Positions 37,010-49,373 of a stretch of DNA of 64,000 nucleotides are shown piece by piece; positions within the stretch are counted from its first letter, which is position 1, and every line of letters begins with the position of its first letter. A model generated the notes under the pieces. The model had not been told where the DNA came from and made no database searches. It was given only the letters and a program-made list of their open reading frames with translations. Origin of the DNA: Ruegeria lacuscaerulensis ITI-1157 (lineage in GTDB: Bacteria > Pseudomonadota > Alphaproteobacteria > Rhodobacterales > Rhodobacteraceae); NCBI GenBank assembly GCA_000161775.1, contig GG704596.1, forward strand, positions 685,825 through 749,824, given 5' to 3'. Made by a program: the position numbers and the translations under genes.

Positions 37010-37099
37010 GGAGACGTGGCCGAGTGGTCGAAGGCGCTCCCCTGCTAAGGGAGTAGGCGGGAAACCGTCTCGAGGGTTCGAATCCCTTCGTCTCCGCCA
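37010..37099 (+). tRNA. tRNA-Ser (GCU)
   Basis: This is a 90-base class II tRNA. The acceptor arms are GGAGACG and CGTCTCC, followed by discriminator G and encoded CCA (37097-37099). The anticodon stem CTCCC/GGGAG encloses loop CTGCTAA with anticodon GCT. A long variable arm (TAGGCGGGAAACCGTCTC) and a GGTTCGAATCC T-arm follow. The 3' end is the attachment site of the neighbouring element. Confidence 0.95.
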
Positions 37100-37100
37100 C
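37085..37100 (+). repeat. attL-like direct repeat (tRNA-Ser 3' end)
   Basis: CCTTCGTCTCCGCCAC, the last 15 bases of tRNA-Ser plus one, recurs exactly in direct orientation at 49358-49373. Together with the integrase this marks one border of an integrative element that keeps the tRNA intact. Confidence 0.8.
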
Positions 37101-37218: not shown

Positions 37219-38406
37219 CTACCGCAGAGTTAAAGAGGCGCGCTCGGGATCATACCGGTAGCGAGAAATCGTCCCGTCTTTGATTCTTTCCACAGCCTCG
37301 TTGATAGCGAACAGTGGAACTAAGAACCATTCGCGCGGGACAACAGGCCGCCCAAACCTGTCCATGATCTCTATCTGAAGCCGTGCGGGCTCGAAGATGC
37401 GGTGGATCAGATTTTCGAGCTTGGTTCGGTTGATATTGTAGAGCTCATAGGTCGCCACGATTTCGACATTGGCCATCAAGAAGGTCGGTTGAAGCTGCGC
37501 GCCCGCAATACGCTTTTCGACGCTCATGTTGGTCACGCCGATCTTGTGCACAAGCTCACGATTCTCAGCGACGAGCGGATGATCGGACTTGCTTCGCAGC
37601 ACATAGATTGTACCGCTTGCCTCATCCCCATCGTTCGTCTGATCAGAGAATAAAGGACCGGCGGTCGGTTCAGTGATCCGTCGCCCTGCCTCGTCCTTGT
37701 TCAAAGCACGTTGGAGCGAGCGCATCAGCATGTTGCTCTCGGTGCCGTTGTCGAAGATTACACGAAGGCGGGCATCGGTGCGCCCCTGGTCAGTGATTGT
37801 CGTTTCCCCCTTCTCGGCGACATACGCCTTCTGACCGCCGACGATGAAAAAGCGCCCCTTCTCAATCTCAGCCTTCATCTCGAACGGCCGCGTATCGCGC
37901 AGGCCACTGTCGAGCTCCTTTTGCACCTGCTCAAAGAGCGGCTTGAAGGCCTCGAAGTCCTCGCATCTGTTGCGGCTGGCCACCTCTTCAGCGGCCTTCT
38001 TCTCTGCCGTCGATCGGACGTGTTTCAGCTCGGTGATTGGTGGCGATTCCACCTCAACGCCAAGCTCGGCCAGAAGCTCATCATCATCGAGCTCTTCTGA
38101 ATCCGCCACAATCGATAGTGCCGCGCCAGTGAGAAGCCCTGCTTGATCCAAGGGCGCAACCAACTCCCGGCATTCCTGAAGCTCGCGGATACGGTCTAGT
38201 CGAAGCGCAAATAGACGTTCGAAAATGTCACGGCCTTCACCATGCTGCGGTACGCGCCCATGTTCCTCCGCAAAGCGCTGAATCTCTTCAAAGCCAGCAA
38301 TGATACGCTCTTCGCGCGGAGTGCGCGTGGTCGGCTTCGGAGGTTCAACCTCAACACCAAGTTCAGCCAGAAGCGCGTCATCTTCTTCGGTAAACTCTCT
38401 AGCCAT
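37219..38406 (-). CDS. GIY-YIG (T5orf172-type) protein of the defence operon
   Basis: This is a 395-residue protein. The C-terminal half has a GIY-YIG nuclease-like core of the T5orf172 type: GTIYVLRSKS near residue 260, then HKIGVTNMSVEKRIAGA near 290 and YNINRTKLENLIHRIFEPAR near 325. The N-terminal half is helical and acidic and carries a duplicated motif, LLAELGVEVEPP near residue 13 and LLAELGVEVESPP near 110. It is the last gene of the operon and overlaps the helicase stop by eight bases. It may be the nuclease or a sensor. The exact role is unknown. Confidence 0.75.
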   Translation of the reverse strand: MAREFTEEDDALLAELGVEVEPPKPTTRTPREERIIAGFEEIQRFAEEHGRVPQHGEGRDIFERLFALRLDRIRELQECRELVAPLDQAGLLTGAALSIVADSEELDDDELLAELGVEVESPPITELKHVRSTAEKKAAEEVASRNRCEDFEAFKPLFEQVQKELDSGLRDTRPFEMKAEIEKGRFFIVGGQKAYVAEKGETTITDQGRTDARLRVIFDNGTESNMLMRSLQRALNKDEAGRRITEPTAGPLFSDQTNDGDEASGTIYVLRSKSDHPLVAENRELVHKIGVTNMSVEKRIAGAQLQPTFLMANVEIVATYELYNINRTKLENLIHRIFEPARLQIEIMDRFGRPVVPREWFLVPLFAINEAVERIKDGTISRYRYDPERASLTLR

Positions 38407-40444
38407 TGGCAGCCTCCTGCTTCATGCGGGCCAAAAACGCCACGCCTTCCGCCATCTTCTTTTCCCAAGCGTCAGGTGAAGTGATGGAAGGCAGCCTTCC
38501 CCTCTCCTGCTTGAACTTCACAGCACGACGTGCCAGGTCGCGCGCTTCTTCAGGTGTGAGATGCACCTTCTTCGCCGAGATCACCGCCGCCACCTGCTTG
38601 AGGCTTTCTTCGCTCATGGTCTTTGCGAGGATCGAATAGGCTTCGCCGAACGGATTGATGCGGTCGATCAGATCGATGTCGAGTTCGCGCACGTCCATTG
38701 CAAACTTGCGCACGCCGTCGATCAAAGCCGTGTTGCCGCTCATCTGCGCGTCATCGTCAGCGCTTGCAAGAGCGGCTTCTTTCGCCTTTTGTGTCAGGTT
38801 CAAAGCAGCAATCGCATGTTGACGTACAGCTTCCTGATCCTCGGCATCGAGATCCGGGAATTTCGCGCCGACGATCTTGCCCATACGCATTTGGGTTAAC
38901 TCTTCGGGCACGAGCTCGTCATCGAAAAGCCCGCGCTCAATCGCCGTTTTATCTTGGACAAAGGCTGCGATCACTTCGTTCAAATCTTGCTGGCAGATAC
39001 GCTCGGCCTCCTTGCTCTTGGGCATGGCCAGCCCCTTGATCTCGATTTGGAACTGTCCACTTTCTTCGCTGAACCCAATGTTTTCCTTGCCGGGATCATA
39101 TCCGTCTTCGCCATAGTCATACCCTTCAACCGGCCCGCTCTTTGGCGTCTTCGGGGTGAAGTTGAAGCGCGGGGCAAGTACCTGCTCCATGAGCAAGCTT
39201 GCGGCAATCGCTTTCAGCGTGTCGTTTACTGCCTCTGTGACGGCTGACTCTGAGGCATCGGGCTCAGCAATTAGGTTGGTGAAGCGGGCCCGCGTCTTGC
39301 CCTCGGCGTCGCGGGTCGCGCGGCCGATGATCTGCACTATCTCCGTCAGACTGGCGCGGTATCCTACCGTGAGCGCGTGCTCGCACCAAATCCAGTCAAA
39401 ACCCTCCTTAGCCATGCCCAAGGCGATGATGATGTCCACATGATCGCGGTTACCTTTGTTGGCAGGGTCTTTAAGTGCACCGGATACCTTGTCGCGCTTT
39501 GCCGGTTCGTCATCGACCAAATCTGCGATTTTCAAAACCTTCCCCTCGGGAGTTTTCACTAACTGAAAACCCGTGGACGGATCAGTGCCCTGCCAGTCGC
39601 CTAGAGCATCGATGATGTGTTCGACCTCACGATGTTTGTCCTTTGTGCTCTCGCGCGAATTGACGTTCGGTATATGCACGATCGTCTTTTCGTTCGGATC
39701 AAGCACCTTGAGGATGTCATCGGTGTATGATCCAGAATAGAAAAAATACCCTATATCAAGCGCTTTTAGGTACTTATAGCCGTTCAGCTGCTCGTAATAG
39801 GTGTAGGTGATCGTGTCGAACTTCGCCTCGTTCTCGGGCAAAAGGATCGGTACGGCATCGCCCCTGAAGTAGCTGCCAGTCATAGCCACGACATGAACGC
39901 GGTCGCGGGCAATGAACTCATTCAGTTGCGAGCCAAGAATGCTGTCCTCACTTGCTGAGACATGATGAAACTCGTCCACGGCGATCAGACGGTCATCGAA
40001 CGCCTCGACTCCGAACTTCTCCACGGCGAAGCGAAAGGTGGCGTGAGTGCACACCAGAACTTGGTCGCCGCTTTCGAGAAACGCGCCCACCGATTTGACT
40101 TTGCCGCCGTCAGTACCGGGCGAATTGCACAGGTTCCATTTCGGCGCGACGGTCCAATCTGCCCAAAAGCCGAAATTGCTCAGCGGCTCGTCGTTGAAGC
40201 TCGATCCGATCGACTTCTCGGGCACCACAACAATCGCTTGCTTGAGGCCCTGGTTGTGCAGCTTGTCAAGCGCGATAAACATGAGCGCGCGGCTCTTGCC
40301 CGAGGCTGGCGGCGACTTGATCAGAAGATACTGCTCGCCCCGCTTCTCATAGGCGCGCTCCTGCATCGGGCGCATCCCAAGTTCATTCAACTTGTTGGAA
40401 CTGCCGTTCTGGGCATAGTTGACGGAAACGGAAGGGACAGACAT
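38399..40444 (-). CDS. Superfamily 2 DEAD/DEAH-type helicase or translocase
   Basis: This is a 681-residue SF2 protein. The P-loop LIKSPPASGKSRALMF lies near residue 48, Walker B/motif II is IAVDEFHHVSA near 153, and motif VI is QIIGRATRDAEGKTRARF near 370. It resembles the helicase part of type I/III restriction subunits. The C-terminal 240 residues are helical and not recognised. The start at 40444 (MSVPSVSVNYAQNGSSNKLN) lies one base after the nuclease-gene stop, behind a GGGGGG run. It probably moves DNA for the partner nuclease. Confidence 0.82.
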   Translation of the reverse strand: MSVPSVSVNYAQNGSSNKLNELGMRPMQERAYEKRGEQYLLIKSPPASGKSRALMFIALDKLHNQGLKQAIVVVPEKSIGSSFNDEPLSNFGFWADWTVAPKWNLCNSPGTDGGKVKSVGAFLESGDQVLVCTHATFRFAVEKFGVEAFDDRLIAVDEFHHVSASEDSILGSQLNEFIARDRVHVVAMTGSYFRGDAVPILLPENEAKFDTITYTYYEQLNGYKYLKALDIGYFFYSGSYTDDILKVLDPNEKTIVHIPNVNSRESTKDKHREVEHIIDALGDWQGTDPSTGFQLVKTPEGKVLKIADLVDDEPAKRDKVSGALKDPANKGNRDHVDIIIALGMAKEGFDWIWCEHALTVGYRASLTEIVQIIGRATRDAEGKTRARFTNLIAEPDASESAVTEAVNDTLKAIAASLLMEQVLAPRFNFTPKTPKSGPVEGYDYGEDGYDPGKENIGFSEESGQFQIEIKGLAMPKSKEAERICQQDLNEVIAAFVQDKTAIERGLFDDELVPEELTQMRMGKIVGAKFPDLDAEDQEAVRQHAIAALNLTQKAKEAALASADDDAQMSGNTALIDGVRKFAMDVRELDIDLIDRINPFGEAYSILAKTMSEESLKQVAAVISAKKVHLTPEEARDLARRAVKFKQERGRLPSITSPDAWEKKMAEGVAFLARMKQEAANG

Positions 40445-40445
40445 A

Positions 40446-41543
40446 CTAGAAAACCCCCCAGTCACGCCCGCTTTTCATCTTGAACGCGCCGTTAACGGCA
40501 GCGCTTTTCTTTCGAAACTTTGCGATTTTCGAATTTTTGTGTACCCTCAACTCAAACATTCGTGGCCCAACAGCTCTAAAATGAAGAACTTTGTTATCAT
40601 ATGAATTTGGGCCGTCACCGCCCGGTATCGGTAGCACCAATTTATCCATCTTATTATCACTATATGTCAAAGAGTACTCTTTATAATCATTTCCGTCGAA
40701 GGAAATTCTAATGTCCCCAATATGAGAGTTCTCAGGGATATCGTCGGCAACAAAACCAAAGAAAACTCTGCTCATTCTCTTGAGCATAACCTGATTGCCT
40801 GGCAGATCCGCCCCGCGATTTTTTGTGACGTTTCCTGCATCAATCCAAAAATTCCGGCATGCACGAAGTTTTTTCAAATCTGCTGCTGAAATTGCCGCCG
40901 TGGACACGTCACCGTTCGCGGTATCGTCTTCAACGGCCGTTGGATTAGATAAATTATCGGTGCTCTCGTACAGTCGCGCATATCTATCGAGCAATGCTCT
41001 ATCCAACGGAGTCCCAGCATCCCATAGATCGTTAAACCAAAGTCTGGCCATGTCGATGCTCTGCAAAAGATCAGCGTTTGTCTCTGGGTCACTACGATCA
41101 ATGCCGATTACCAGCCCAGCCTCCACTCCCTTTGAGAGACCAGACCTTGATAGGTTTCCTGACCCTACCAGCCCGACCTCGATATTTTCTCCCAAGCGGA
41201 ATAGATAAGCCTTTGGGTGGAACGGTCGATATGGGATTCCATTGTTTGCTAGCGCGGATTCTGGCTCGTGGATTCTCACAGAAGATTTTGGAAGTGCCAA
41301 AAGCGCTTCTAATGCTACTGGCTCCGTTCTCAAATAGTCAAATGAGGTAAGCCATTTCTTAGACCTATTCGCATCATCAAGGTCAAAGTGATTGCGAAGA
41401 GTTGCGTCGAGATCATACAGACCTGTTGAAGTAATGTACGCGGCAGCTACATCTAGGCTGTCAAAGTTGTGCGCCTGCGCAATCTCTTGGATCGCCGTGC
41501 TTGTTGTTCGATGTGATGGTTGTGAGACGCTACCGAAAATCAT
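40446..41543 (-). CDS. PLD-fold nuclease resembling BfiI/NgoFVII restriction enzymes
   Basis: This is a 365-residue protein. The phospholipase-D active-site motif is PFHPKAYLF (H109, K111), followed by LVGSGNLSRSGLSKGVEAGL near residue 126, the HxK...GSxN form used by metal-independent nucleases. The C-terminal 150 residues (from FWIDAGNV to GRDWGVF) look like the B3-type DNA-binding half of NgoFVII/BfiI enzymes. The start at 41543 (MIFGSVSQPSHRTT) follows GGAGG. It lies between the methyltransferase and helicase genes. Only one HxK motif is present, so it would work as a dimer, as BfiI does. Confidence 0.72.
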   Translation of the reverse strand: MIFGSVSQPSHRTTSTAIQEIAQAHNFDSLDVAAAYITSTGLYDLDATLRNHFDLDDANRSKKWLTSFDYLRTEPVALEALLALPKSSVRIHEPESALANNGIPYRPFHPKAYLFRLGENIEVGLVGSGNLSRSGLSKGVEAGLVIGIDRSDPETNADLLQSIDMARLWFNDLWDAGTPLDRALLDRYARLYESTDNLSNPTAVEDDTANGDVSTAAISAADLKKLRACRNFWIDAGNVTKNRGADLPGNQVMLKRMSRVFFGFVADDIPENSHIGDIRISFDGNDYKEYSLTYSDNKMDKLVLPIPGGDGPNSYDNKVLHFRAVGPRMFELRVHKNSKIAKFRKKSAAVNGAFKMKSGRDWGVF

Positions 41544-41572
41544 CCTACCTCCGATGCAAGTCGTCATTTCGT

Positions 41573-44308
41573 TTAAAACCGAGAAGAGTACAAGCTGAAC
41601 AGCTTTTCCAAGCGTTCAGTGTCATTCTTAAATTTTCTGCCAATATAAATGCGCTCTAGCGTTTCGTCGTTGCGGTCGTGCGCAGCGCGCAGGTCGGAGG
41701 GCATCTTTTCAGGATCGTAGAGATCGGCAATGGTTGCTGGGAAATGCGCTTCCCGCGCCAAAAGGATATCCTCGGCGCAACGGGTGAGGTCTTCCTTGTT
41801 TTTCTCGGTCAGTTTGGGGGTCGGGAAAGTGTTCCAGCCAAGGGTATTCGAGTAGCGATAGTCAGTTTTTAGCTTACCACAAACGGCTGAAACCCAAATC
41901 AAGTGGATACGAGATGCGATAACGGCCATGTGCCAGAGGGGCGCATCGTAAATGGCAAACGCGCTGTCGGCGACAATCGCACGATTGTCCAACAAGCCAA
42001 CTGGAAGGTAGGGACGGCGTTCTGAGCTGACACGAGGAACAATCAAGGTGCTTCGCTTGGAGGTACCTTGAATCTGCACAAAACGGTAGGGAACTTTTGC
42101 AAAGTCACGAGTTGATGCAGCTTTGCTTTCAAGTCGCACTGACTTAACGGCATCGAGCCTTTCACCAATAATTGGAGACTGCAAAGAATCTTCATACTCT
42201 TCCGGCTCGATCCAGAGGCAAAATCTTTTTTTCCCTTTGATAAAATCTTCAGAGCCAAAGAATGGTCTTATGTATTTCATAAATATGGGATCGGCTCCCC
42301 CTCCCGAAATCATCTGCTCATACGAGACAACTAGATGACCGCCATCGCGGGGCATGTTACCGAAGAGCATAGGAGAGTAACCCTTTGGGGGCGCGCGCCT
42401 ACTTTCCACGACTACGTTTGGCCCATCAACCAAATAAGGATTGATGTTGGAGCATATTTTTTCGAGCACCTCACCGCCGGCATCAAGCGAGTAGAGGCGC
42501 TTTTTAGCTCTTCCCATACTTGAAATTCCAACGACGATAACGATGACGCCCGCATTATAGCTCGCCAAGTTAGCCCACTTGAACGAGGTGTAAGCAAACT
42601 CGATTTCGTGTCCTGTGCCGAAGATTGCAGGCCAGAGAATCGGAACCTGCTGCCCCTGGCACAGCGAGTTCGTTGCCACAAAGGCGGAGACAGCTTTGGT
42701 TCGCGTTCCGTAATCAGCGGCTTTCATGAACCATGCGGCTACGTAATCAAGCGATTTCCAGCCGTCTACGCGTCCGTCAAAAACAACGCGAAGATCATCT
42801 TTCTGTTCACTCGATTGTAGCTTATTGCCAAGATAAGGTGGGTTCCCACAGATGTAGGTCTCCCCCCCCTCATTTTCGAAGTCGATCTCGGCTTGATCTA
42901 TGGGTGACATGAACAAATCGTCGGCGTGATGCTTCACCCCCGTACCTGTGGGCGGACAGATGCTCAACCAATCGAGCCGCAGCGCATTGCCGGTCACGAT
43001 CCAGTTCTGCGCATCGAGCGGCAGGAAATCCTGTATTGCCTCTTTCTGGCCGCGATAGAGCACGTCGCACTGATACTCAGCAATAATCAGAGCCAGCCGC
43101 GCGATCTCGGCCGCGAAGTCGCGCAGCTCGATCCCGCGAAAGTTGGTGAGCGGGATTTCGGAGCGCCGATCGGCCTCGCCGCGCCGCCTGTTGATTTCGG
43201 CCTCGATGGCGCGCATTTCCTTGTAAGCGATGACCAGGAAGTTGCCCGAGCCGCAGGCCGGGTCGAACACCCGGATGCGCGACAGCCGCCTGCGCAGGTT
43301 GAGAAGCTTGCGAGGGTTGTCGCCTGCCTCGTCCAGCTTTTCGCGTAGGTCATCGAGGAAGAGCGGATTGAGCACCTTCAGGATGTTGGGCACCGAGGTG
43401 TAGTGCATCCCCAATGCGCCGCGCTCTTCCTCGTCGGCCACGGCCTGGATCATCGAGCCGAAAATGTCGGGGTTGATCTTCTTCCAATCGAGCCCGCCGA
43501 TATGCAGAAGGAAGGAACGCGCGATCTTGCTGAACCGGGGCACATCGGTGTTGCCAGAAAAGAGGCCGCCGTTGACATAGGGAAAGGCGTCGGCCCAGCG
43601 GGGAGTGCCCGCTTCCGCGCGATCCCCTGGCTTCGTGGCCATGGCGCGGAAAATGGTGGAGATCACCTCATGGGTGTTCGAGCTGTCCCGGTCGCTCATG
43701 GTCGCGACGGTGTCGGTGAAGAGGTCATCGCGCGCAAAGATTTCTGTGTCTTCGGCGAAAAAGCAGAAGATCAGCCGCGCCATGAAGTGGTTCATGTCAT
43801 GGCGACGCTCAGCGGCGCCCCAGTCGGGGTTGTCCCTCAGCAGCTGGAGGTAGAGCCTGTTGAGCCGACCCGTGGCCTTGATGTCAAACGAGCTCTCGCG
43901 GATTTGCTTGACGGTACTGATCCCGGCGAGCGGCAGGAAGAAGCCGAAATGGTCGGGGAAGTCGGCATAGGCGCAGGCGATCGTCTCGCCCGAGGATAAA
44001 TCCTCGGCTTCAAGATCAATGCCATCAGTAGCAAGGATGAACTTTGCTTTGGCTTTGGTGGTGGCAGGGCTCGCCTTAAGCTGCGCCAAGGTGGCGGTGA
44101 CCTCCCCCGCCTCACAAACCTTTAGATGAATGTTGTTGGTCTGAAGAACGCCGCCTTTGTCGGATTTGTTCGAAGAGCCGGTGCGCAGGCGCTTAATGGT
44201 GGTCGCCTTGTTTCCGAAAGCTTCGAGAAAGGCGAAAGGGAACTCATCTGCATCGAAAGGTTGCTCGGCCAATGCCGAAATTGCCTCTTCAATTTCAACG
44301 GCATTCAC
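41573..44308 (-). CDS. N6-adenine-type DNA methyltransferase (type IIG/ISP-like)
   Basis: This is a 911-residue class I SAM-dependent DNA methyltransferase. The N-terminal helical region of about 330 residues is followed by motif I, VFDPACGSGNFLVIAYKEM (near residue 348), and motif IV, ETYICGNPPYLGN (near 480), the NPPY form of gamma-class adenine enzymes. The C-terminal 350 residues probably hold target recognition. No PD-ExK nuclease is evident at the N-terminus, so cutting must come from a partner. It is the first gene of the operon, starting MNAVEIEEAISALAEQPFDA. Confidence 0.88.
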   Translation of the reverse strand: MNAVEIEEAISALAEQPFDADEFPFAFLEAFGNKATTIKRLRTGSSNKSDKGGVLQTNNIHLKVCEAGEVTATLAQLKASPATTKAKAKFILATDGIDLEAEDLSSGETIACAYADFPDHFGFFLPLAGISTVKQIRESSFDIKATGRLNRLYLQLLRDNPDWGAAERRHDMNHFMARLIFCFFAEDTEIFARDDLFTDTVATMSDRDSSNTHEVISTIFRAMATKPGDRAEAGTPRWADAFPYVNGGLFSGNTDVPRFSKIARSFLLHIGGLDWKKINPDIFGSMIQAVADEEERGALGMHYTSVPNILKVLNPLFLDDLREKLDEAGDNPRKLLNLRRRLSRIRVFDPACGSGNFLVIAYKEMRAIEAEINRRRGEADRRSEIPLTNFRGIELRDFAAEIARLALIIAEYQCDVLYRGQKEAIQDFLPLDAQNWIVTGNALRLDWLSICPPTGTGVKHHADDLFMSPIDQAEIDFENEGGETYICGNPPYLGNKLQSSEQKDDLRVVFDGRVDGWKSLDYVAAWFMKAADYGTRTKAVSAFVATNSLCQGQQVPILWPAIFGTGHEIEFAYTSFKWANLASYNAGVIVIVVGISSMGRAKKRLYSLDAGGEVLEKICSNINPYLVDGPNVVVESRRAPPKGYSPMLFGNMPRDGGHLVVSYEQMISGGGADPIFMKYIRPFFGSEDFIKGKKRFCLWIEPEEYEDSLQSPIIGERLDAVKSVRLESKAASTRDFAKVPYRFVQIQGTSKRSTLIVPRVSSERRPYLPVGLLDNRAIVADSAFAIYDAPLWHMAVIASRIHLIWVSAVCGKLKTDYRYSNTLGWNTFPTPKLTEKNKEDLTRCAEDILLAREAHFPATIADLYDPEKMPSDLRAAHDRNDETLERIYIGRKFKNDTERLEKLFSLYSSRF

Positions 44309-44546: not shown

Positions 44547-44915
44547 TTAAGAAGTCTCAGGAAACTCCTTTTTCCCCCTTGCGCACTTCTTTGGGCCCGT
44601 ACTGAGCCCTCCGTGCAGGCGGCACCGTCGCTTTCCGGGCACCACGCGCGCTTTGCAGCAGCCACCAGAACGAGTTTTGGCGCCACACACTGGGCGCTGC
44701 GACTTGGGTAACGGTTTGCCGCAATCATCCAGTCCCAATTCCGCCATTCGCCTACAGGTTACATTGAAGCACTGCGAACAACCTTTCTGGTAGTTCCGGT
44801 GTTTGTGGCTTTCTGCCGGGCATGGTCGCCAATGCGACCGCAGCGCCCACCAATCGATGGGATCGCTTCTAAACAGCGCACGCATCTCAACTTCCTGCTT
44901 TTTCGGTCGCCCCAT
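44547..44915 (-). CDS. Small Cys/Lys-rich protein with HGG-STGP motif
   Basis: This is a 122-residue protein starting MGRPKKQEVEMRALFRSDPI. It ends with the mobile-element motif CGAKTRSGGCCKARVVPGKR followed by CRLHGGLSTGPKK. Such HGG-STGP tails are common on small proteins of phages and islands. Their function is unknown, though the Cys/His pattern suggests zinc binding and possible DNA contact. Positions 44309-44546 upstream of the methyltransferase hold no clear gene. Confidence 0.65.
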   Translation of the reverse strand: MGRPKKQEVEMRALFRSDPIDWWALRSHWRPCPAESHKHRNYQKGCSQCFNVTCRRMAELGLDDCGKPLPKSQRPVCGAKTRSGGCCKARVVPGKRRCRLHGGLSTGPKKCARGKKEFPETS

Positions 44916-45058
44916 CAGAAAACACCAACAATTCTTACCATAGTTTGAAAACCCCATGATGCGCGAAACGGAAATACTATTCGGTCCTACGAAAGCCGAT
45001 GCCGAGTATCGCTTCAGCGAGCTCATTGCATGTGTGGTGCCAACAGTGCGAACCAACA

Positions 45059-45172
45059 GGTGACGCAGCATCACCACCACCCCTCCCCCTTTAGGGGTGG
45101 TGGTGGTGACGCACATGCTTTTGGGGGTGTCTGCGTCACCCCGCGTCACCCTTGATTTTGGGGTGGTGACGC
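45059..45172. repeat. Iteron-like cluster: five copies of GGTGACGC plus a 12-bp hairpin
   Basis: GGTGACGC occurs at 45059-45066, 45105-45112 and 45165-45172, and inverted at 45133-45140 and 45143-45150. CACCACCACCCC (45072-45083) and GGGGTGGTGGTG (45094-45105) form a perfect 12-bp stem. The cluster overlaps the last codons and 3' flank of the RepA-like gene. It could be an origin, an oriT-like site or a strong transcription barrier. Confidence 0.6.
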
Positions 45173-46354
45173 AGACCAAACGGTTGCCCATTCGCCCACC
45201 TCGACAGTCGGAACAGGCTTGCGGATGGGGCCGGTTTTCTGCCCCTTCACTAGCGCCCCGGACTTCAACCAAGCCTCGATCATCTTCTTGATGCGCTTAC
45301 GGTCTGATACCACATCCAAGCCCAGCACTTCGGCCACGGTCACGCCCGCCCAATCGTTGCCTGACTGATCGGAGTAGCGCCGCCCTTTGCCTTCCAAGGC
45401 GCGTTGTACTCTCAGCAGATCATCGACCGAAACGCCGTCGAAAGTATCCGGCCATTTCCAAGCCTCGGCCACGCCCACACTGTCACCGTTGGAAAGGTGA
45501 ACAGACGCCATGCGCCGCCAAACACGTTCCCCGACCGGGGCAAGGTTCGCTTTGTCGCGGGTGACGGCAAAGTAGGTGGACGGGTCTTCCTGAACGCCCG
45601 CCTCGGCTTTCATGTGGTCGTTCATCTTGTTCAACACCCGACCGGACCTTGCAGCCGCCAGCAGCGCCGATGCACCGCGCCCGCTTTCGGTTGTGGCTTC
45701 TTCGCCATTGGTCTTGCGGGTATGGTGGACTAACTCGATTGCGCAATTGCACCGATCCGCCAGACGCGCCCATTCCTTTGCGATCAGGTCAATCGCGCCA
45801 TTGTCGTTTTCCGTCACCTGATGCGATGACACGAAGGGGTCGATCACCAGAACGTCGATGCCCCGAGCCTCGATCTCATTGGCTAACGCGTCCAGTTCCG
45901 GCTTAATGATCTGGACGCCCTCGCGGGTCTGAATGGCGATGGTGAGTTCTCGCTCGCGGCCCGTGTCCACATAGAGCCGTCCCTTAATTTCCTTGGGGCA
46001 AATTTGGTGGTGCTGCATCGCCGCAATAATGCGCCGGTCCATTTCGTCGCGCGGGTCTTCCAGGTTGTACAGCCAGACCCTCAGACCCTTGGCAGTCCAT
46101 TCTCCCAGCAATTCCCGGCCTGACGCCATCGCCAGCGCCTCACATATCGTCAGAGACGATTTGCCAACACCACCAGGCGCCACCGTTACAGACACCTGCT
46201 TGCGGATCAGGTGACACCCGTACAGCCAAGGGCGCGGCGGTATGCTGCTCGGATCTCGCCATACGAACTCCGTAGGCCAGCGATCCATCCGTTGCTGGGG
46301 AAACTCGGCACAATGTGCACCAAGCTGCGTTTCCTTGTCAGAGAAATCCCGCAT
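45146..46354 (-). CDS. RepA-like AAA family ATPase
   Basis: This is a 402-residue ATPase of the RepA/AAA_25 hexameric type. Walker A is SVTVAPGGVGKSSLTICEAL (near residue 57) and Walker B is IDVLVIDPFVSSHQVTENDN (near 165). HHTRKTNGEEATTESGRGAS near 210 is the sensor region. The C-terminal 100 residues resemble a winged helix (VAEVLGLDVVSDRKRIKKMI). The start at 46354 overlaps the upstream gene stop as ATGA. It is probably the replication or maintenance helicase of the element. Confidence 0.82.
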   Translation of the reverse strand: MRDFSDKETQLGAHCAEFPQQRMDRWPTEFVWRDPSSIPPRPWLYGCHLIRKQVSVTVAPGGVGKSSLTICEALAMASGRELLGEWTAKGLRVWLYNLEDPRDEMDRRIIAAMQHHQICPKEIKGRLYVDTGRERELTIAIQTREGVQIIKPELDALANEIEARGIDVLVIDPFVSSHQVTENDNGAIDLIAKEWARLADRCNCAIELVHHTRKTNGEEATTESGRGASALLAAARSGRVLNKMNDHMKAEAGVQEDPSTYFAVTRDKANLAPVGERVWRRMASVHLSNGDSVGVAEAWKWPDTFDGVSVDDLLRVQRALEGKGRRYSDQSGNDWAGVTVAEVLGLDVVSDRKRIKKMIEAWLKSGALVKGQKTGPIRKPVPTVEVGEWATVWSASPPQNQG

Positions 46355-46743
46355 CACGCTACATCCATCCCTTGGACATATTCTAGAAAATCTCGCTGCC
46401 GCGCGGGGTACATGCGTTTGAAGCTGGCAACGCAATAGGCTTCCAGTTCTTCTTGCTCAGCCATATCGGCCCAGAAGATAGCCTGATCCATGAAACCAAA
46501 GAGCGGAGCATCAGGTCTTCCAGCGCCCGTGCCGAGAGCCTTCTCAACAGTTAGAATGCCATCCTCGCGATCCAACGACTTGATTGCTATGAAAGCCAGC
46601 GCGGCACGCTGGTAGGGATCAAGGCGAGCCCGCAAAACCTTTGGCAGACCGAGCCACCGGTTGGCACTGTTCAACCAAAGAGCATATCCGATCGACCGCG
46701 ATACTCGCTTGATGTCTCCGGGAATGTGGTCAGTGATACTCAT
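46354..46743 (-). CDS. Hypothetical protein of the element's replication module
   Basis: This is a 129-residue helical protein starting MSITDHIPGDIKRVSRSIGY. It has no motif I recognise. It overlaps the RepA-like gene by four bases, so it is probably co-translated with it. The 163 bases between it and the AlpA-like gene hold nothing clear. Confidence 0.65.
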   Translation of the reverse strand: MSITDHIPGDIKRVSRSIGYALWLNSANRWLGLPKVLRARLDPYQRAALAFIAIKSLDREDGILTVEKALGTGAGRPDAPLFGFMDQAIFWADMAEQEELEAYCVASFKRMYPARQRDFLEYVQGMDVA

Positions 46744-46906: not shown

Positions 46907-47152
46907 TCACTTCGTCCGGGGTTCGCGGCTTTGAAGCCAGACAACGATGTCACTTTCACGCCATGCGACAAGGCGTACACCTAGTTTCACTGGCTGGGGA
47001 AAATCCCCACGTTTCATCCAGTCGTAGAGCGTCGATCGGGAAAGCCCGGTAAGATTCTCGACCTCTGGACGGCGAAGCAAACGGTCATGATCTCTTTGTG
47101 CAAAAACGCTTTGAGGAACGATGTCCATTTTTTTTAACTCGGCATCGGCCAT
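46907..47152 (-). CDS. AlpA-like helix-turn-helix regulator/excisionase
   Basis: This is an 81-residue MerR/AlpA-type DNA-binding protein: LLRRPEVENLTGLSRSTLYD followed by WMKRGDFPQPVKLGVRLVAW and ESDIVVWL. AlpA proteins switch on P4-type integrase or excision genes. The start at 47152 (MADAELKKMDIVPQSVFAQR) follows AAAGGAAC. Confidence 0.85.
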   Translation of the reverse strand: MADAELKKMDIVPQSVFAQRDHDRLLRRPEVENLTGLSRSTLYDWMKRGDFPQPVKLGVRLVAWRESDIVVWLQSREPRTK

Positions 47153-47228
47153 GTTCGGTTCCTTTCGGTATCGGTTGAATACATCGGAACCATGCCAAAT
47201 CATTTTTCGCAGAGATAAGGTGAGTAAT

Positions 47229-47915
47229 TCATTTTTTCATTGAATAATTTCTGTTCACAACATCAATGGCTTTCTTTGTGAAATCCGCGGGGTTAGCTTT
47301 AATTTCACCGGCCGCGAAGATGTCCTTCACAAAACGGTAGAGGCGCCCCTCATAGGTATCAGTGTAGTCATTCCATGTTGGGTAAGTCGGTCGGCCTACA
47401 AACTCTTTGAATGCCGAAGCGCAAAGCTGCGCAACCGTGAGAGGGCCATCTTTTCGGGGCGCTCCCCTTCCAAATTGCTTTAGTTTGGGTTCAAGTTCGG
47501 CGCGGGTTCTTTCGACAGACTGGCGCAGAACATCGATTTGTTCGATCCATTCCTCAACGGCACCGGGATTGCCAATCACGGTGCCAGCCCAGGAGTACCC
47601 CTCCAACTCTCCGCTTGAAAGGTCGAGGAGGCCGAGTTTTTCACGCGCGAGAAGTTCTCTTGCTACGGGATTGAGTTGTTGCATCTTGTTCAAGATACGC
47701 GCTAGCAGCTTTGCAACGTCTTCAAGCTCTATGGTTGCCTGTCTCTTTTCATTTTCAAAGGACCGGCCGATCCGATTTTCCCGCGCGGCCTCCAACGCCG
47801 AAGTGAACAAATTGGTCAGCGCACATTGGATCTCTGCCGGTACGTCTTGAAGCACCAGGTGCTCGTTCAAGACGTCGAAAACGCGGGTGTTCAGAGATTT
47901 CCGGGAAACCGTCAT
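47229..47915 (-). CDS. Hypothetical protein coupled to the integrase
   Basis: This is a 228-residue protein starting MTVSRKSLNTRVFDVLNEHL. It is mostly helical with a basic central stretch (KLKQFGRGAPRKDGPLTVAQ) and is not recognised. It overlaps the integrase stop by four bases (ATGA), so it is translated with it. It may assist recombination or be accessory cargo. Confidence 0.65.
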   Translation of the reverse strand: MTVSRKSLNTRVFDVLNEHLVLQDVPAEIQCALTNLFTSALEAARENRIGRSFENEKRQATIELEDVAKLLARILNKMQQLNPVARELLAREKLGLLDLSSGELEGYSWAGTVIGNPGAVEEWIEQIDVLRQSVERTRAELEPKLKQFGRGAPRKDGPLTVAQLCASAFKEFVGRPTYPTWNDYTDTYEGRLYRFVKDIFAAGEIKANPADFTKKAIDVVNRNYSMKK

Positions 47916-49228
47916 TCGCGTTCAGCCATATACAAAACTTTGCCGTTGTTGGTTGCGTCGCCTCGAACGAAATTTGCCCAAGCAGCCATCATTTCACGTC
48001 GCCGATCGAGCATATCGGACCGCTGATAGGCACGTTCCACCTCTGAACCGATGAAATGCGCCAGCGCGATCTCGGCCATATCACGCGGAAAGCCTCGTTC
48101 CGCAGCCCATTGCCGGAAAGTCGAACGCAGACCATGTGGTACAGCGGGACGCTGGCTTGTAGGGTCGAGATACCCCGTCCCGCCCGCCATTACCTGCGCT
48201 TCCTGCATACGGCGCATGACAGCGGAAATACTCATGTCCGAGAGCATCCCACCGCGCGGTGCAAAGAATACGTAAGGTGAGCCGTCCAGGCGCGGCAGTG
48301 ATTTAAGAAGGGCTATCGCCTCAGAACTGAGCGGCACGCGATGCGCGCGTCCGTTCTTCATCCGCGAAGCCGGAATGGTCCAAATTGCACCTGGTGTCTC
48401 CAATGCCAAGGATTTCGCACCATTCCCGAAGTCGATTTCATCCCACGTAGCACCGCGCACTTCGCCCGAACGTGCGGCGGTCAGGGTTAAAAATTCGAGC
48501 GCGCGGGCGGCCATACCTTCACGCTGTGCGAGGTCAGCCCACCAGCGCGAAACGTCGCCCAACGCAAGAGCCGGTTGATTACCGGCCTTTGCCACCTTCG
48601 ACGGTTTGGGAAGCATTTCAGACAGGTTTCCTTTCCAACGAGCCGGGTTGTCACCTTTGCGATGCCCCGCCACTGTCGCCCAAGACAGCACGTTCTCGAT
48701 CCGCCCGCGTAAGCGGGATGCAGTTTCGGTCTTGTCCTTCCAAATCGGCTCCAGCACACGCAGCACGTCTTGTACCTCGATTTCTGAAACCTGCTTCGTC
48801 CCGATAACTGGCGCGGCATAGCGGTCAAGTGTCGAGCGCCATTGCTGGCGGTGTTTTTCGTTTCGGAACTCCGTCAGCTTGACGGCAAGGTATCTGTCCG
48901 TGGCCTGCGCAAAGGTTAGTCCTTCTCGTTCCTTCCGCTTTTCAGCAAGCGGGTCGCCTCCTAACATGGCCTTACCGCGGTTTTCCAAGGCCAAACGACG
49001 TGCGGTAGCCAGTGACACGGCGGGTGGGCTACCAAGTCCGAGTTCGCAGCGTTTGCCACGAATGGTGATCCGCTGCACCCATTGCCGGGAACCGTTGGAA
49101 TTGACACGAAGGAACAGGCCTTGCCCGTCGAAGTACTTGCCTGGCTTGGAAACAGTTTCGACAAAACGCGCACTCAAAGCCTTTGCCGGTCTCCTAATAC
49201 TTTGCTCACGCAAATTTTTATCCCCCAT
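47912..49228 (-). CDS. int: P4-type tyrosine integrase
   Basis: This is a 438-residue tyrosine recombinase. The N-terminal DUF4102-like part (FDGQGLFLRVNSNGSRQWVQ) and core-binding domain are followed by the catalytic domain: Arg I in LTAARSGEVRGATW, the HxxR box in PHGLRSTFRQWAAERG, and Tyr in EVERAYQRSDMLDRRREMM. It lies 130 bases inside attR and reads into the element. It is the expected enzyme for integration at the tRNA-Ser 3' end. Confidence 0.93.
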   Translation of the reverse strand: MGDKNLREQSIRRPAKALSARFVETVSKPGKYFDGQGLFLRVNSNGSRQWVQRITIRGKRCELGLGSPPAVSLATARRLALENRGKAMLGGDPLAEKRKEREGLTFAQATDRYLAVKLTEFRNEKHRQQWRSTLDRYAAPVIGTKQVSEIEVQDVLRVLEPIWKDKTETASRLRGRIENVLSWATVAGHRKGDNPARWKGNLSEMLPKPSKVAKAGNQPALALGDVSRWWADLAQREGMAARALEFLTLTAARSGEVRGATWDEIDFGNGAKSLALETPGAIWTIPASRMKNGRAHRVPLSSEAIALLKSLPRLDGSPYVFFAPRGGMLSDMSISAVMRRMQEAQVMAGGTGYLDPTSQRPAVPHGLRSTFRQWAAERGFPRDMAEIALAHFIGSEVERAYQRSDMLDRRREMMAAWANFVRGDATNNGKVLYMAERE

Positions 49229-49357: not shown

Positions 49358-49373
49358 CCTTCGTCTCCGCCAC
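49358..49373 (+). repeat. attR-like direct repeat
   Basis: CCTTCGTCTCCGCCAC matches the 3' end of tRNA-Ser (37085-37100) exactly, in the same orientation. Just 130 bases separate it from the integrase start. Chance identity of 16 bases at exactly this place is very unlikely. Confidence 0.78.

Follow-up and report, generated by a model that had tools for sequence, protein, structure and literature searches.

Does the four-gene operon beside a tRNA-Ser gene in the window (the whole 64,000-nucleotide stretch of DNA analysed here) encode one restriction machine, or a conserved core that houses an exchangeable gene? The original prediction was a split, restriction-like system built from an adenine methyltransferase, a PLD nuclease and an SF2 helicase, with a GIY-YIG protein as an extra effector. 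We refer to the methyltransferase, PLD, helicase and GIY-YIG genes and their products, in that order, as M, P, H and G.

An operon on a mobile element

M, P, H and G are four uninterrupted ORFs in the ORF list of the window, all of them on the minus strand. When start codons were picked from ribosome-binding sites and the N-termini of homologues, the four intact genes and their predicted spacing were borne out exactly, with gaps of 29 bp between M and P, 1 bp between P and H, and -8 bp between H and G. The sequence GGAGG lies just 5' of the ATG start of P. In a scan with shuffled controls, the number of promoter and terminator sites was not above that in the shuffles. The operon belongs to an element of 12.27 kb that is sited at tRNA-Ser and bounded by 16-bp direct att repeats of the sequence CCTTCGTCTCCGCCAC. 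The features are as follows.

37010..37099, plus strand: tRNA-Ser(GCT), the integration site
37085..37100, plus strand: left att repeat, overlapping the 3' end of tRNA-Ser
37219..38406, minus strand: G, T5orf172/MUG113 GIY-YIG protein (YeeC-like), 395 aa, ATG start
38399..40444, minus strand: H, SF2 DExH helicase/translocase (YeeB-like), 681 aa, ATG start
40446..41543, minus strand: P, predicted BfiI/NgoFVII-like PLD nuclease with a B3-like C-terminal fold, 365 aa, ATG start
41573..44308, minus strand: M, MmeI-family (DnmA-like) adenine DNA methyltransferase, 911 aa, GTG start
44547..45272, minus strand: HGGxSTG-domain ORF, directly upstream of the operon inside the element
45146..46435, minus strand: AAA_25 replication-type ATPase of the element
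46907..47203, minus strand: AlpA-family excisionase/regulator
47229..47915, minus strand: 228-aa ORF between the integrase and AlpA genes
47912..49228, minus strand: tyrosine integrase
49358..49373, plus strand: right att repeat

In the congeneric genome G401 we observed a contiguous match over the joined flanks of the element (query 566-853, junction 701). Because this match runs unbroken across the joined flanks, the integration site in G401 is empty. Together with the att repeats, the integrase and the AlpA protein, this empty site confirms the predicted mobile element.

The core proteins

A comparison of M with Pfam revealed all five MmeI domains (Mtase, 7e-117; TRD, 3e-81; N, 5e-36; hel, 2e-25; C, 2e-17), and M was also aligned to the MmeI structure 5hr4. 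Its NPPY motif occupies residues 489-492. The D-x9-ExK nuclease motif is present in nine of nine solitary MmeI homologues, as against one of 83 M proteins of M-H-G loci, and that sole match is a chance pattern match. Where the solitary MmeI proteins have D-x9-ExK, the MmeI_N domain of M-H-G loci has a conserved VLQTNNIHI-like segment. Judged by its sequence, M belongs to the MmeI family but no longer has the nuclease motif, so the predicted adenine methyltransferase stands but is narrowed to this type. A solitary MmeI or type IIL restriction enzyme was rejected as an identity for M since the N-terminal D-x9-ExK is missing. A divergent DnmA-like methyltransferase, 45% identical and likewise without the nuclease motif, is found at locus L133 of genome G407, which is of the same genus as the window.

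As predicted, H is an SF2 helicase and G, by its sequence, a T5orf172 GIY-YIG protein, and both have Pfam matches above cut-off: DEAD/ResIII for H, and MUG113 (1e-15) and T5orf172 (8e-12) for G. The H motifs PPASGKS, DEFHH and TGSYF are kept in all 121 homologues, and motif VI in 120. In G, residues G265, Y268, K288-I289-G290, R299, E331 and H335 are invariant across 20 sequences, and the YIG tyrosine is replaced by lysine (KIG). Residues 258-395 of G give a weak structural match to the Slx1 nuclease (Z 5.4), and no other match of G exceeds this value. The centre of the protein (approximately residues 167-248), flanked by a helical N-terminal part on one side and the GIY-YIG domain on the other, is an EF-P/Tudor/KOW-like barrel. 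Plain Foldseek with G returned only EF-P/eIF5A-like matches, to this central barrel, and the GIY-YIG domain surfaced in a later look.

Recurrence of the core

The order M-H-G recurs in more than 100 other loci and is thus not due to chance. These loci come from viral contigs, from 80 species genomes and from a sample taken evenly over the window's class, which supplied 17; some of them end at contig borders. The class sample comprises 385 genomes; 17 of these, one being the window's own, have full-length H, and 19 have any match. Wherever G was found, it lies downstream of the helicase gene. G is a core component, and it is the PLD protein, not the GIY-YIG protein, that is the extra. The predicted gene order holds outside this genome for M, H and G, but the four-gene order with PLD is rare among the loci compared.

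The core is not new: it was already described as the dnmA-yeeB-yeeC cluster of B. subtilis (PMC7261158, PMC9973331), where Morgan et al. 2009 is cited as the first to note it. The same papers report that DnmA of B. subtilis produces m6A at GACGAG, that its nuclease motif has been lost and that its helicase and T5orf172 neighbours are conserved. As in that cluster, a helicase gene and then a T5orf172/GIY-YIG gene lie downstream of M on one strand. Homology to the B. subtilis proteins was gauged through relatives: the Bacillota loci L067, L078 and L085 have M proteins with 67-68% identity, one H homologue is annotated YeeB, and there is an MmeI_N signal in B. subtilis.

In B. subtilis, deletion of yeeB or yeeC leaves sensitivity to Nf, SBS-PhiJ and Phi29 unaltered, deletion of dnmA leaves plasmid transformation unaltered, and the authors' verdict on the cluster is that it is a defunct relic (PMC9973331, PMC7261158). 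If the same is true here, M would be an orphan methyltransferase serving gene regulation, and H, G and P would be relics. Nothing weighs more heavily against a type I-like reading of the locus than these negative results with phages and with transformation. However, the active-site motifs of H and G are invariant over 121 and 20 sequences, and the linkage of H to G is universal among the loci seen. Furthermore, as summarised in PMC9973331 (its ref. 35), deletion of the dnmA and yeeB homologues of V. crassostreae leads to greater sensitivity to some phages, a phenotype that is the main functional support for a type I-like reading. We consider an orphan methyltransferase with relic neighbours unlikely.

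The PLD protein

The Pfam matches of P, to RE_NgoFVII and PLDc_2, fall below the cut-offs. There is one PLD motif per chain, HxK...GSGN, and it is invariant in six sequences. The predicted structure model of P, which is of moderate confidence (mean pLDDT 69, six-sequence alignment), matches the SauUSI PLD (Z 17.9), BfiI (Z 13.5 over 281 residues) and the NgoAVII R protein (Z 11.8), and the C-terminus of the model matches the C-terminal B3 domain of BfiI (Z 9.5). The structures matched are 2c1l, 4rct and 3zi5. Given these matches, the earlier description of P as a PLD nuclease with an NgoFVII/BfiI-like C-terminus holds. DrmC was rejected as an identity for P, the match being 14 bits over 23 residues only.

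Eight P loci were compared, namely the window, L039, L051, L053, L088, L099, the OB3b plasmid and the Methylocystis DISARM locus, and a methyltransferase gene lies directly upstream of P in all eight. The complete M-PLD-H-G order is present on plasmid pOB3b2 of M. trichosporium. A class-wide search with P returned P itself and weak PLD matches only, and no further PLD relatives were confirmed on viral contigs. On a plasmid of Methylocystis sp. MJC1 (L189/L202), a DISARM operon has, 37 bp beyond drmMI, a relative with 35% identity to P. This BfiI-like PLD gene sits between drmMI and drmA, and its product matched no PADLOC model.

An exchangeable slot between M and H

The gap between M and H is shorter than 200 bp in 51 and longer than 200 bp in 61 of the 112 scorable M-H pairs from other genomes, and nine of 17 M-H slots in the class sample are occupied; because loci were sampled by similarity to the window's H, these frequencies are not population estimates. 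The H-G junction has room for a gene in none of 120 cases, the largest value (228 bp, L168) being an uncorrected alignment start. Members of the PLD family occupy the slot in five of about 120 loci, the window not counted. Elsewhere the slot holds nucleases and other proteins (RhuM, YhcG/DUF1016, Schlafen-AlbA, a second T5orf172 protein, Mrr, CoiA-like, GmrSD-like, DUF559 and PDDEXK_4), toxin-type families (VapC, BrnT, YafQ, zeta toxin and AbiE/DUF6088) and several families with no Pfam match, for example of 137, 264, 277 and 290 residues. Some inserts have no clear gene, and nine loci, in which the contig is cut or a clear gene is absent, were left out of cargo scoring. The cargo leans towards nucleases and toxins, mostly in the same orientation as the operon, and two of its families match the PADLOC candidate defence genes PDC-S02 and PDC-S05.

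Several slots have further peculiarities. At L029, L026, L052 and L178 the cargo is a second, distinct T5orf172-like (GIY-YIG) protein beside the core G. At L030, L094 and L048, H is immediately preceded by 62-residue ORFs in which the peptide 'DRVLI' is repeated; at L030 and L094 they adjoin the Schlafen-AlbA cargo, and the L030 slot also contains a disrupted copy of the first part of H. The 137-residue protein, which is perhaps a small PD-(D/E)XK nuclease, is the M-H cargo on a Paracoccus plasmid, and on a Sphingopyxis sp. 113P3 plasmid (L193) its gene follows a type ISP restriction gene at a distance of 10 bp.

On a FastTree tree of 121 H proteins, which has many weak forks, we counted at least 27 changes of occupancy and at least 54 changes of cargo. 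The cargo differs even between loci whose H proteins are 95-100% identical (L029/L031, L033/L036, L053/L055, L030/L094 and L016/L018). In near-identical core pairs, DNA identity breaks off at the M stop codon and returns at the H start. P is exchangeable cargo in the M-H slot, not core. The nearest relatives of the window's core hold RhuM, a second T5orf172 protein or an empty slot.

Target recognition varies as well. Mean identity is 39-47% over a block of M at approximately residues 495-815 (the end of the methyltransferase domain and the TRD), as against 69-80% over the rest of the protein. L030 and L094 have a common TRD and different cargo, and the pairs L035/L094 and L080/L081 have common cargo and different TRDs. 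As far as sequence comparison can tell, this region is an exchangeable recognition block that swaps independently of the slot cargo.

These observations bear on the model first proposed, in which all four genes form a single integrated machine and the PLD protein is the dedicated cutter for M. The methyltransferase-proximal position of P in all its loci favours such a machine, as do the close spacing on either side of P and the homology of DrmMI to M in its C-terminal half (24% identity, E 9e-19). However, the PLD gene is missing from nearly all other M-H-G loci, the slot is empty in 51 of 112 M-H pairs and filled by unrelated genes in most others, the closest relatives of the window's core do without P, and P has, according to its model, a B3 fold of its own. 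We therefore give the integrated machine a low probability.

At the opposite extreme, the slot could be a mere insertion hotspot, with operon expression and tolerance of inserts explaining the cargo and no functional link between the two. The inserts that have no clear gene fit this explanation, as do the toxin-antitoxin genes VapC, BrnT, YafQ, zeta and AbiE, which may select for their own retention. Against it, inserts are never seen at the H-G junction of these operons, and the cargo is biased towards nucleases and toxins, is mostly co-oriented and includes the two families that match PDC-S02 and PDC-S05. A hotspot without function thus seems very unlikely to us.

Proposed mechanism

We favour, with a probability of roughly 60%, a restriction-modification system that is type I-like, mobile and of the DnmA-YeeB-YeeC kind, and that houses an exchangeable accessory nuclease. 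This reading keeps the predicted split, restriction-like character of the locus. Its domains, lost motif, M-H-G order, turnover of slot and TRD, and mobile element are read from sequence or from structure models; from there we infer the activities of all the proteins, the order of recruitment and the anti-phage outcome. M would methylate adenine at an asymmetric site set by its MmeI-type TRD, thereby marking self DNA. At unmodified sites M would recruit G and H, the latter as an ATP-driven SF2 motor, and the GIY-YIG domain of G would cut the DNA. P, co-expressed from the M-H slot, would be a BfiI-like PLD nuclease in its own right that brings along a DNA-binding B3 fold, and may serve either as an additional cutter, probably independent of metal, or as a stand-alone defence gene. 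Weighing against the type I-like reading are the structural matches of G, at Z 5.4 or below, the lysine in place of the YIG tyrosine, and the moderate confidence of the P model.

A more tentative possibility is that the slot works as an effector bay, the core being a conserved chassis with two cassettes, the TRD block and the nuclease or toxin, that are exchanged independently of each other. The cargo might then act on a signal from the chassis or guard the chassis against phage inhibitors, and the slot would be a natural library of anti-phage effectors that includes PLD enzymes common to DISARM.

Should the type I-like reading prove correct, this restriction-like cluster, which is widespread and was once labelled a relic, would be a defence platform still under active evolution, and its M-H slot would be a convenient place to look for new nucleases and toxins. 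Taken together, the slot genes of different genomes would be a useful set, assembled by nature, of candidate anti-virus effectors. Some cores are almost the same except for their cargo, others except for their target recognition, and such natural pairs make the role of each module directly testable.

Comparison with known systems

BREX was rejected, as PglX models score below 30 bits against cut-offs of 400-900 and the element has no PglZ or BrxC partners. DISARM was likewise rejected, in agreement with the original prediction, since a scan of ten proteins of the element gave no match to DrmA or DrmB; what the locus shares with class 1 DISARM is the homology of DrmMI to the C-terminal half of M. 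With BfiI, NgoFVII and the NgoAVII R protein, P shares the PLD motif and, in its predicted model, a C-terminal B3-like fold, but its sequence similarity to them is marginal and it lies inside another restriction-modification operon. M shares all five MmeI Pfam domains with type IIL MmeI; unlike MmeI, it lacks D-x9-ExK, and the motor and nuclease are on separate genes.

Defence genes embedded in type I restriction-modification and Hma operons are already known (Payne et al. 2024, as cited in PMC12255303 and PMC12629846). Those cases and ours have in common unrelated defence or toxin genes between restriction-modification genes, RhuM and DUF1016 being PADLOC candidates. They differ in the host, which here is DnmA-YeeB-YeeC; we found no description of that cluster as such a host and no earlier description of its M-H slot, the core itself being already known. 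Relative to DnmA-YeeB-YeeC, the window has in addition a PLD gene between M and H and an element at tRNA-Ser. It shares with that cluster an MmeI-like methyltransferase without the nuclease motif, an SF2 helicase and a T5orf172/GIY-YIG protein, encoded in the same order on acquired DNA.
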